From positions 1 to 15,086 of the forward strand of contig JADHWK010000051.1 in assembly GCA_016783505.1 (NCBI GenBank): 15,086 bases of DNA, read 5' to 3'. The notes beneath the pieces were generated by a model. That model worked only from the letters and a program-made list of their open reading frames with translations, ran no database searches and had not been told where the DNA came from. Shown in pieces: positions 2,727-14,063 of the stretch; position 1 is the first letter of the stretch; each line of letters begins with the position of its first letter. This stretch comes from Candidatus Zhuqueibacterota bacterium. GTDB lineage: Bacteria > BS750m-G25. The translations under genes and the position numbers were made by a program.

Positions 2727-2860
2727 TTGATCACCAATGAGTTGAAACAAAATAAATAACGCCGAACCCCAGTGATTATCCACCTATTTTGTAACCGCAC
2801 TCCCAATGCCTGGGTGCGGAGCTATCGCAGGCGTAAAGCCTGCGGCTAAAATGCATAAAA

Positions 2861-2901
2861 AACCTCCCGGGGCTGGAGACCTTCGGGGGGTTATTTTTTT
2901 T
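2861..2901 (+). terminator. Rho-independent terminator, probably bidirectional
   Basis: ACCTCCCG (2862-2869) pairs with CGGGGGGT (2884-2891), with one G-T pair, and is followed by TTATTTTTTTT. An A-run (2857-2862) lies before the stem, so it could also stop leftward transcription. It ends the lipoprotein transcript. Confidence 0.8.
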
Positions 2902-2909
2902 AAAACGTA

Positions 2910-2938
2910 TTGCTTTTGATCTAAAAATTATGTAAATT
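2910..2938 (+). promoter_or_regulatory. Promoter in cassette copy 1
   Basis: TTGCTT (2910-2915), 17-bp spacer, TAAATT (2933-2938), continuing as TAAATTTA. It also fits the Bacteroidota-type pattern of TTG followed about 20 bp later by TAnnTTT. The same boxes with the same spacing recur at 7307-7335 and 11447-11475, which supports function. Here it would start a transcript with a leader of over 200 nt before the racemase-family gene. Confidence 0.6.
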
Positions 2939-2974
2939 TATTTGTAAATCAGTATTCAAAAAGGAGGTCTAGCT

Positions 2975-3104
2975 GTAGCCGCATCCCGTCGGCCCCAAGG
3001 GTCTTGAACCCGTAGGGTCTTGGGAAACGAGCTTGGGAAAGGCTCGGGGTGCGGAACTATCGCAGGCGTATCAGTGGGGCGCCTGACCGAAAGCCTGCGG
3101 CTAC
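2975..3104. repeat. 130-bp nested hairpin element with 9-bp terminal inverted repeats
   Basis: Perfect terminal arms GTAGCCGCA (2975-2983) and TGCGGCTAC (3096-3104) enclose a mosaic of hairpins. The backbone matches the two-hairpin unit at 2795-2848 (CCGCA...GGGTGCGG, then CTATCGCAGGCGTA...AAGCCTGCGG), but with extra DNA in each loop. About 50 bp sits in the first loop (around 2989-3038; it contains CCCAAG/CTTGGG and CGAGC/GCTCG stems), and exactly 20 bp in the second (3071-3090). The element lies between a promoter with strong ribosome-binding site and the racemase-family start, so it probably lengthened that gene's leader. Confidence 0.65.
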
Positions 3105-3177: not shown

Positions 3178-3882
3178 ATGTATAAGAAAATTGGCATACT
3201 TGGTGGATTGAGTCCGGAATCTACAATTGAATACTACCGATATATTACCAGAAAATATTACGAGCTTTTTGGAGATTACAACTATCCCGAAATCATCATT
3301 TACGGGGTCAATTTCCAACAGTTCATAAACTGGCAAAGAGAAGGAAATTGGAATAATATCGTGGAAAGGCTGGTACAAGCTACACAAGCCATCCATGCTG
3401 CCGGCGCTGACTTCGGATTAATTGCCACAAACACTATGCATATTATATTTGACAAGGTGCAAGAGAAATCACCAATACCCCTTATAAGTATTATCGAAGC
3501 CACCGCTACTGCAATTAATAAAGAGAAAATCGAAACCGTTGGACTTTTAGGAACCCTTCACACTATGAGAGAGCAATTCTATAAAGAAGGATTATTTAGA
3601 CACGGTATCAAAACGATAGTTCCAGAGCCACAAGAGCAAGAATTTATCAACAAAGTAATTTATGATGAATTGACAAGAGGACGAATAAATCAGAGGTCAA
3701 AGCAAGCCTACATAGAGATTATTAATAAACTCAAGGCTAAAGGAGCAGAAGGCATAGTTCTAGGTTGCACCGAAATACCCCTTTTAGTACAACAGATTGA
3801 CTGCAACATAAAACTATTTAATACAACACAGATACATGCACAAAATGCACTTAACCTTGCTACAAATACCGAGGTCAGATAA
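3178..3882 (+). CDS. Aspartate/glutamate racemase-family protein lacking the first catalytic Cys
   Basis: 234 residues, the usual length for the YgeA-like Asp/Glu racemase family, which interconverts L- and D-amino acids by a two-cysteine, cofactor-independent mechanism in the cytoplasm. The start is MYKKIGILGGLSPEST; the upstream in-frame extension (from 3049) runs through the hairpin element and is not protein-like. The N-terminal GGLSPESTIEYY and the second-site motif VLGCTEIPLL (Cys197) are intact. The first-site motif reads IATNTMH, so the position expected to be Cys (residue 83) is Ala. Loss of one of the two acid/base residues should impair racemisation, unless Thr84 substitutes or the enzyme does a different reaction. 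The ribosome-binding site is weak (AAAGTGAAG). A hairpin follows the stop closely. Confidence 0.8.
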   Translation: MYKKIGILGGLSPESTIEYYRYITRKYYELFGDYNYPEIIIYGVNFQQFINWQREGNWNNIVERLVQATQAIHAAGADFGLIATNTMHIIFDKVQEKSPIPLISIIEATATAINKEKIETVGLLGTLHTMREQFYKEGLFRHGIKTIVPEPQEQEFINKVIYDELTRGRINQRSKQAYIEIINKLKAKGAEGIVLGCTEIPLLVQQIDCNIKLFNTTQIHAQNALNLATNTEVR

Positions 3883-6890: not shown

Positions 6891-6920
6891 ATGATTTAAG
6901 GGTAAAAAGGTCTGAGCTTG

Positions 6921-6946
6921 AAATCAATAAAAACAAGGAATGAAAC
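6921..6946 (+). repeat. Solitary diverged CRISPR-like repeat
   Basis: This 26-bp segment matches the end of the 862-890 repeat at 22 of 26 positions, in the same orientation, and ends in GGAATGAAAC. It lies 30 bp after the carboxypeptidase stop. No second copy is adjacent, so it is at most a relic. Confidence 0.45.
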
Positions 6947-7257
6947 AATCTATTACTCACATCTTTAACTTCCCTAAATCCCCCCCAGCCCCCCTTTTTT
7001 AAAGGGGGGATTTCAAAGGGGGACTTGAGTGGGGGGATAATAGTTAGTCATCAAGGGGGGGGGAAGAAGATGTCTCGAATGAAGTTTCCTCTCCTTTGGT
7101 GGAAGAAGATGAGTATGAGCAGAGTATTTTAGGGTGAAATAAGAATAAAGAAAACCTAATCCCAGCGATTATCATTTAATATGAAATCGTTTTCTTTATA
7201 GATGTTTGATGTAAAACAATCCGTAGGCGTAAAGCCTGCGGCTACAATGCATAAAAA

Positions 7258-7295
7258 ACCTCCCGGCCTGAAAACCTTCGGGAGTTTATTTTTTT
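7258..7295 (+). terminator. Rho-independent terminator in cassette copy 2
   Basis: CTCCCG (7260-7265) pairs with CGGGAG (7279-7284) and is followed by TTTATTTTTTT. An A-run at 7253-7258 precedes the stem, so leftward termination is also possible. Confidence 0.75.
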
Positions 7296-7306
7296 AAAAA
7301 AACGGA

Positions 7307-7335
7307 TTGCTTTTAATCTTAAAATTGCGTAAATT
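7307..7335 (+). promoter_or_regulatory. Promoter in cassette copy 2
   Basis: TTGCTT (7307-7312), 17-bp spacer, TAAATT (7330-7335), the same arrangement as in the other two copies. It sits directly after the terminator and about 70 bp before the radical SAM start, so it most likely drives that gene. Confidence 0.6.
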
Positions 7336-7406
7336 TATTCATAAATCAGTATTCAAAAAGGAGGATAACAGACCGATATGGTGTGGGAGGGGAGAGATAT
7401 GTCTAT

Positions 7407-11104: not shown

Positions 11105-11398
11105 GCCGGTGAGATTTTTATAGAGAGTCCCCCTTATATAATTTCATTTGTAACCCCCCCCTAAATCTACCCAAGCCCCCCTTTTTTAAAGGGGGGAGTT
11201 AAGGGGGGATAATAGTTAGCCATCAAGTTGGGAAAAGAAGATGTCTCGAATGAGGTTTGCTTTCCTCTGGTGGTAGAAGATGAGGGTGAGGAAAGTATTT
11301 TCAGGTGAAATAAAAACAAAGAGCACCTAACCCCAGCGATTATCTGTTAATATGTAGCCGTACCCCGAAGGCTCGGGGTGCGGTATAATGTATAAAAA

Positions 11399-11438
11399 AC
11401 CTCCCGGGGCTGGAGACCTTCGGGGGGTTATTTTTTTA
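11399..11438 (+). terminator. Rho-independent terminator in cassette copy 3
   Basis: The stem ACCTCCCG / CGGGGGGT is identical to that at 2862-2891 and is followed by TTATTTTTTT, with an A-run before the stem. It would end the spermidine-synthase-like transcript and shield the promoter that follows. Confidence 0.8.
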
Positions 11439-11446
11439 AAAACGGA

Positions 11447-11475
11447 TTGCTTTTAATCTTAAAATTACGTAAATT
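11447..11475 (+). promoter_or_regulatory. Promoter in cassette copy 3
   Basis: TTGCTT (11447-11452), 17-bp spacer, TAAATT (11470-11475). It lies 25 bp upstream of the LolA-like start. The ribosome-binding site GAGGGAGG (11489-11496) follows at the right distance from ATG 11501. Confidence 0.6.
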
Positions 11476-11500
11476 CATCCGTAAATCAGAGGGAGGAACG

Positions 11501-12256
11501 ATGAAAATAATCTCAATCTATTTCGGACTACTGTTTTTGCTGACGGGAACCATCCTGGCTCAGGAGCTCACCGGACCGGAGATAATAGATAAGGTCAGGG
11601 AACTCATGAATCAGGAGAATGTAAAGGGAATGATGACTCAGACCATCGAGACCACCTCGGGCCAGTTGCGTACCTTCGAGTATGAATACTTCGCCGCCAA
11701 CAAGGGGGAAAAGACACTGATGCGTTACACCAAGCCCAGAAGGGTTAAAGGCCTGGCCTTTCTTATAACCAACTACGCCGATGACATCTGGATTTATTTC
11801 CCACGAACCGGTAGGGTTTTGAAAAAGGCTTCACATTTCAAGAAACAAAAAGTTCAGGGAAGTGATTTCACCTATGAGGACATGGGCTCCGGGGAGGCCT
11901 GGATTGAAGAATATGAGTCCCGGAGACTAATGGATGAAAAAGCCGAGGGCTTTGATTGCTTCAAGGTAGAAATGGTGGCCATGCCGGAAGAAAATCCCAC
12001 CTATTCAAAAATGGTGATATGGGTGCGTAAGAGCGATTTCTCCACGGTGAGGATAGCTTACTATAACGATAAAGGGGTTCATGAGAAAACCCTTTATCTG
12101 CGGGATATTCAGGACGTGGATGGGATTCCTACGGCCATGACCATGGTAATGGAGAACCATCTGAACAACACCCGGACAGAGATGAAGACCATCTCTGTCA
12201 CCTATAATACTACCTACCCCAAGAACTTTTTTAGTGAAAGGGAGCTGAAGAGATGA
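11501..12256 (+). CDS. LolA-like outer-membrane lipoprotein-sorting protein
   Basis: 251 residues. ATG 11501 is chosen because GAGGGAGG precedes it and a clean signal peptide follows (hydrophobic core, cleavage after LA at residue 20). An in-frame TTG at 11447 lies in the promoter and is rejected. The mature protein matches the COG2834 type of periplasmic LolA/LolB-like half-barrel: repeated beta-strands, the signature QGSDFTYEDM (119-128), and a C-terminal strand reading TYPKNFFSERELK. Such proteins bind lipids or lipid-modified cargo and often accompany MMPL/RND exporters, as at the end of this window. Transcription probably starts at the cassette promoter just upstream. No terminator with a T-run on this strand follows directly. 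Confidence 0.82.
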   Translation: MKIISIYFGLLFLLTGTILAQELTGPEIIDKVRELMNQENVKGMMTQTIETTSGQLRTFEYEYFAANKGEKTLMRYTKPRRVKGLAFLITNYADDIWIYFPRTGRVLKKASHFKKQKVQGSDFTYEDMGSGEAWIEEYESRRLMDEKAEGFDCFKVEMVAMPEENPTYSKMVIWVRKSDFSTVRIAYYNDKGVHEKTLYLRDIQDVDGIPTAMTMVMENHLNNTRTEMKTISVTYNTTYPKNFFSERELKR

Positions 12257-13846: not shown

Positions 13847-13897
13847 GGGTACAGTTCACCAGTAAATTTAATTTCTGAATCTTTTGGCCTTTCTCAA

Positions 13898-13945
13898 AAC
13901 CCCCCTTTACTCCCCCCTTTAATAAAGGGGGGCTAGGGGGGGGTT
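13898..13945. repeat. G/C-tract palindrome
   Basis: CCCCCCTTTA (13912-13921) faces TAAAGGGGGG (13923-13932), and outer AACCCCCC (from 13898) can pair with the GGGGGGTT tract near 13937-13944. It is related in type to the palindromes at 6989-7009 and 11176-11196. It lies 50 bp after the beta-barrel stop and may stabilise or end its mRNA; the T-run is missing. Confidence 0.6.
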
Positions 13946-13974
13946 AGGGTAAAACGACATAGAGTTAAATTTTT

Positions 13975-13992
13975 GGTCAGGCGCCCGACTGA
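13975..13992. repeat. Short dispersed palindrome GGTCAGGCGCCCGACTGA
   Basis: This 18-mer is the reverse complement, with one mismatch, of the segment at 3071-3088. A shortened relative occurs at 12573-12585 and rearranged pieces at 14629-14660. It is a near-perfect palindrome around GGCGCC, so it is probably a small REP-like unit. Confidence 0.6.
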
Positions 13993-14063
13993 AAAGATTA
14001 TTATATTCGTTTTTCTTTATGCCTTGTTGAGTCGGTGACATAATTGTTATTTAAAAGGAAATA

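Follow-up and report, generated by a model that had tools for sequence, protein, structure and literature searches.

A terminator-promoter junction repeated three times in direct orientation on one contig of a Candidatus Zhuqueibacterota bacterium

Introduction

Correia elements of Neisseria are small dispersed intergenic repeats that can carry promoters as well as termination signals. GTAG-tagged REP dimers, or REPINs, are likewise intergenic and consist of a GTAG end, a hairpin, a spacer, an inverted hairpin and a CTAC end (PMC3116915, PMC3733652). Repeats of another kind arise at insertion sites: prophage e14 at icd is enclosed by a direct repeat of its target sequence, with 12 exchanges in 165 bp and the reading frame kept (PMC11148124). 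Putative mobile promoters are homologous intergenic sequences that bear promoters and stand, within one genome, in front of non-homologous genes (Matus-Garcia et al., 2012 NAR, "Promoter propagation in prokaryotes"; van Passel et al., 2014 Genetics; via PMC8049555) and, as far as the account in PMC8049555 goes, they are the closest published kind to the repeat described here.

The window analysed is a stretch of 15,086 nucleotides (contig C67) from a Candidatus Zhuqueibacterota bacterium, in which a repeat of about 110-145 nt, termed module A, occurs three times inside 8.6 kb. Like Correia elements, module A is a small intergenic repeat bearing promoter and termination signals, but alignments of its three copies revealed neither common terminal inverted repeats nor target-site duplications, which sets it apart from a Correia-like MITE. 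Module A and a second junction family of the same genome, family B, both place homologous promoter sequence before non-homologous genes as mobile promoters do; compared with the account in PMC8049555, they differ in that a terminator lies inside the repeated piece, that family A is clustered in 8.6 kb, and that their movement is hypothetical. With REPINs the locus shares a GTAG-tagged hairpin pair in front of terminators, present in many copies across phyla (PMC3116915, PMC3733652), whereas its terminator and promoter are not part of the REPIN and do not accompany REP at the loci fetched from other genomes. The e14/icd case (PMC11148124) resembles gene-tail repeats found elsewhere in this genome, three of which likewise differ mainly at synonymous sites. 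In the window, by contrast, what is repeated is a junction of terminator and promoter, and no recognisable integrase is present.

Results

Three copies of one junction between unrelated genes

The original prediction had named three homologous gaps, and alignments confirmed them at the positions given, with module A delimited as follows:

2842..2967, plus strand: module A copy 1 (alignment; covariance model, 156 bits)
7238..7364, plus strand: module A copy 2 (alignment; covariance model, 138.6 bits)
11378..11495, plus strand: module A copy 3 (alignment; covariance model, 139.4 bits)

The core order leads from the end of a REP hairpin via a terminator to TTGCTT-N17-TAAATT. In pairwise alignments, copies 1 and 2 are 87.5% identical over 144 nt and copies 1 and 3 90.2% over 112 nt, and the aligned blocks (110-144 nt) gave E values of 1e-35 to 1e-43. 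Since blastn within the own genome returned E values of 1.7e-30 and 8e-37, this likeness goes beyond chance. Upstream of module A, homology between copies 2 and 3 continues for about 200 nt, and the two are alignable across 379 columns, including a G/C palindrome and the adjoining "block". Copy 1 does without the leading palindrome, as had been noted before, and without the block as well; because its alignment begins only where the block stops (GTGAAA/GTTGAAA), it looks like a state free of the palindrome-block element.

All copies are in direct orientation and bracket two two-gene segments, one with a racemase and an M14 peptidase (copies 1-2), the other with an AmmeMemoRadiSam radical SAM protein and a spermidine-synthase-like protein (copies 2-3). 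The outer genes are an ORF ending at 2726 before copy 1 and a LolA-like gene at 11501 after copy 3. According to Pfam and NCBIfam, the genes before and after the copies are mutually unrelated, in agreement with the earlier claim. The SD-like end of copy 1 (AAAAAGGAGG) and the racemase ATG at 3178 are about 210 nt apart, separated by a REP cluster.

Terminators and promoters

Every copy contains a GC-rich stem-loop followed by a T-run, the signature of an intrinsic terminator, and downstream of it a predicted promoter:

2861..2892, plus strand: copy 1 intrinsic terminator stem-loop, T-run 2893-2901 (predicted fold -18.8 kcal/mol)
7257..7286, plus strand: copy 2 terminator with a shorter and weaker stem, T-run 7287-7296 (predicted fold -9.6 kcal/mol)
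11398..11429, plus strand: copy 3 terminator, same as that of copy 1, T-run 11430-11437 (terminator call and fold)
2910..2938, plus strand: copy 1 predicted promoter TTGCTT-N17-TAAATT (genome promoter type)
7307..7335, plus strand: copy 2 predicted promoter TTGCTT-N17-TAAATT (motif match)
11447..11475, plus strand: copy 3 predicted promoter TTGCTT-N17-TAAATT (motif match)

The terminators do look bidirectional, as had been proposed, with A-runs and T-runs flanking the stem and a match on the minus strand too, and the predicted boxes were recovered identically in all three gaps. By contrast, the higher conservation claimed for stems and boxes relative to the connecting DNA was not confirmed: invariant columns amount to 12/12 in the boxes, 20/24 in the stems and 43/54 in the connecting DNA (Fisher p = 0.39).

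Genome statistics were taken from 532 kb of sampled sequence, about a fifth of the genome, in which some stretches had been picked for holding these repeats and repeat frequencies do not equal genome averages. In this sample, 13 of the 230 upstream regions contain TTG-N20-TAAATT, module A copies accounting for three, versus 0.9 in mononucleotide shuffles, and TATAAT is depleted upstream of genes (27 versus 44 in shuffles). The predicted module A promoter thus matches the over-represented motif of the genome. Besides, of 213 other codirectional gaps, 19 contain a terminator that ends 0-60 nt upstream of such a promoter, versus 0.5 in dinucleotide shuffles. These 19 junctions share the arrangement but have unrelated sequences; terminator-then-promoter is the usual way in which junctions are built in this genome.

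Repeats upstream of module A

A REP doublet stands directly before the terminator in all three copies, and the window holds further repeats:

2791..2848, plus strand: copy 1 REP doublet, REPIN-like, with two hairpins (GTAACCGCAC...GCGGCTA); full 58-nt relative at C1:94379 (L083)
7222..7245, plus strand: copy 2 REP doublet, second hairpin kept, first decayed (alignment)
11354..11383, plus strand: copy 3 REP doublet, first hairpin (GTAGCCG...) present, second apparently deleted (alignment)
2975..3104, plus strand: additional REP cluster, downstream of the SD-like end of copy 1 and ahead of the racemase start (repeat comparison)
6950..7139, plus strand: element P (G/C palindrome plus block) upstream of copy 2 (repeat comparison)
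11156..11310, plus strand: element P upstream of copy 3 (alignment)

What had been taken for an interchangeable hairpin looks like one two-hairpin REP doublet instead, its copies being in differing states of decay. The complete doublet at C1:94379 reads GTAGCCGCAGGC-TTTAC-GCCTGCG-TATTTATTCT-CGCACCC-ATAAA-GGGTGCGGCTAC. In copy 3, the second hairpin was apparently lost through a deletion between TGCGG repeats, since the hairpin junction is what such a deletion would leave. Considered alone, the hairpins are two inverted GTAG-tagged REPs, each a hairpin, in the L083 copy (GTAGCCGCAGGC..CTAC), in the window and in other phyla. The cassette as a whole does not end at GTAG/CTAC: homology runs about 75-120 nt beyond CTAC, and this flank is missing beside REP at the other loci fetched.

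REP hairpins also occur at genome sites without module A, and the exact hairpin GCAGGCDTAAAGCCTGCGGCTAC was found in at least 118 stretches, which come from many phyla and frequently hold the same doublet. Modules A and B were absent beside REP in 80 fetched loci, whose flanks are unrelated or diverse. Letter-for-letter hairpins were seen in Calditrichota, Nitrospinota, Nitrospirae, Planctomycetota, WOR-3, Chloroflexi, Deltaproteobacteria and others (loci L087-L166). Three Y1_Tnp genes exceed the Pfam cut-off in the genome, all flanked by other hairpins.

Element P is also present at C27:46500-46616 and C49:9821-10023 without module A, and the G/C palindrome at 17 genome sites. Because REP hairpins and element P occur elsewhere without module A, the gaps are best read as a mosaic of independently dispersed repeats joined to an ordinary terminator and promoter, not as the one modular unit initially proposed; by all indications from these comparisons, the upstream parts disperse separately from module A.

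An origin of the block as a gene remnant was rejected: one copy pair reads EEDVSNEV..., but the frames break between copies. A hidden RNA was rejected too, as Rfam reports only the CRISPR repeat in the window; at family B loci, Rfam gave nothing. The two CRISPR repeats, at 854-890 (Rfam CRISPR-DR7) and about 928-965, enclose one spacer upstream of the first ORF, and positions 6918-6947, just before copy 2, are 77% similar to them. Positions 13848-14034 hold a copy of a dispersed palindromic element of 170-230 nt also found on C22, C27, C52, C85 and C88, better copies of which end GTAACAGTT...AACTGTTAC.

Copy number and distribution

Using blastn on the 2.5 Mb bin, we found only three copies of module A, every one on C67; with the bin at 59.9% completeness, this number is a lower bound. 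The same three were returned by a covariance model built from them, with the next match at 21 bits (E 0.25). Under random scatter, the location of all three on one 15-kb contig would be expected with about 4e-5. A search of the phylum, which covered this genome alone, gave no relative with the arrangement before copying; nothing comparable appeared in 59 other genomes, and the exact pattern had no match across GTDB genomes. Phage and plasmid collections gave no match either, and an origin from these sources was rejected. The copies expected elsewhere in the genome thus did not turn up in these searches, and judged from its distribution module A is not a single genome-wide mobile cassette. What stands of the proposed mobile unit is the reuse of a junction before unrelated genes, seen in the three copies and in family B.

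A second junction family

Family B has the order REP hairpin - CATTCARAAAGAA - terminator GCCCCATTTAACGATGGGGC - CTTGACAATATGCTTTTTTATC... and is about 90% identical among three contigs:

C35:4145-4260 (L053): family B copy
C87:1036-1136 (L056): family B copy
C20:5707-5800 (L077 1501-1594): family B copy
C32 (L081 1501-1551): weaker terminator-promoter copy

At C1, C81 and C5 the family B terminator occurs without the promoter. The genes that follow family B encode a PfkB kinase, an MBL-fold hydrolase and a patatin, and also a sodium:sulfate symporter-family protein. Merging families A and B was rejected, their similarity being limited to the shared REP end. Since family B precedes unrelated genes on three contigs, junctions do get reused, and because C35, C87 and C20 are unlinked, they can spread beyond local copying.

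Direct repeats around small gene inserts

Within the sampled 532 kb, nearly every local repeat is direct, and in several cases the copies enclose a small gene insert. On C23 (L025 882-993, 1884-1995, 2562-2671), three direct etfB 3' ends surround two ParE-type toxin modules (toxin and antitoxin genes), with the reading frame kept and mostly synonymous differences. Further cases are an AMMECR1 3' end flanking a mannosylglycerate synthase gene (C28), a terminator plus about 100 nt flanking a BrnT/CopG pair (C54), a peptidase gene tail flanking an AlbA_2 gene (C9) and a respiratory-complex gene tail flanking a DUF6883 gene (C66). For three tail repeats, pS was 0.19-0.29 and pN 0.02-0.07, rough values from few sites.

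C28 (L057 9354-14870) also encodes a paralogue of the spermidine-synthase-like protein found in the window, close to a Memo-AMMECR1 fusion gene, an arrangement that echoes the AmmeMemoRadiSam radical SAM gene adjoining the spermidine-synthase-like gene in the window. No viral relative of this radical SAM gene was found.

Discussion

Our preferred reading, to which we assign a probability of roughly 0.6, is that local copying of an ordinary junction, composed of a terminator and a housekeeping promoter, placed direct repeats around two two-gene segments. The intrinsic terminator would end the upstream transcript, and the housekeeping-type promoter about 20 nt further on would start the next codirectional gene. 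By analogy with other loci of the genome, this particular junction would have been copied by recombination or by insertion leaving direct repeats, so that its copies now bracket the two segments, while the REP doublet upstream of all three and the G/C-palindrome element upstream of copies 2 and 3 would be separately mobile repeats. The confinement of module A to one 15-kb contig counts for local copying, the scatter of family B over unlinked contigs against it.

Recombination may have copied the junction alone. Alternatively, by comparison with the gene-tail loci, the copies could be scars of two insertions, in which the two-gene segments entered successively at one junction, flanked by the ORF that ends at 2726 and by the LolA-like gene, each segment bringing or duplicating junction sequence like prophage e14 at icd. 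This is one version of local copying, and its likelihood overlaps with the figure given above; we regard it as a tentative possibility at well under even odds. It is consistent with the direct orientation of the copies and with the parallel etfB, AMMECR1, BrnT/CopG and AlbA_2 loci, three such loci having gene tails that differ chiefly at synonymous sites. GC3 differs by gene, weakly in favour of insertion (ORF1 0.34, racemase 0.35, M14 peptidase 0.43, radical SAM and spermidine synthase 0.48, LolA-like and porin-like 0.57-0.60); however, it is unchanged at copy 1 and shifts within the first segment. Moreover, the window has no recognised integrase gene, and the segments are larger than most other cases and lack toxin-antitoxin genes.

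A true mobile composite, in which a Y1 (REP-associated) transposase moved the REP doublet together with the adjoining terminator and promoter, would give any downstream gene an insulated housekeeping promoter. Both families show a REP doublet, about 12 nt, a terminator and a promoter before unrelated genes, and the genome does encode Y1 transposases, yet none of the three genes is flanked by this REP. We consider such a composite unlikely: its ends vary among copies, with no common terminal repeats or target duplications in the alignments, family A is restricted to one contig, three family B terminators lack the promoter, and the doublet occurs in other phyla with diverse flanks and neither module at the fetched loci. 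Even less can be said for a regulatory region kept alike by selection for co-expression of three operons. The full agreement of the copies in their -35 and -10 boxes, and the near-identity of their spacers, fit this idea, but conservation that is not significantly higher in stems and boxes than in connecting DNA, the general type of the promoter and the extension of the likeness into REP and palindrome repeats make it very improbable. A binning or assembly artefact has the slightest chance of all. C67 is short, and its GC content of 0.437 is low in the range of the stretches sampled; nevertheless, the copies differ in sequence, so the assembler did not repeat a single stretch, and element P and the REP elements of C67 recur on other contigs. 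The tetranucleotide profile of C67 lies inside the range of other stretches, and contamination of the bin is not supported.

In a wider and rather doubtful extension, terminator-promoter junctions would travel as functional modules beside REP doublets in this lineage, inserted genes would arrive insulated and housekeeping-driven, and the same recombination habit would leave gene-tail direct repeats around small cargo genes. Families A and B provide concrete sequences to seek in further genomes of the lineage. If junctions are indeed reused in modular form, genes newly acquired by members of poorly known phyla would be expressed immediately and leave their neighbours undisturbed, which would bear on how foreign genes are accommodated.
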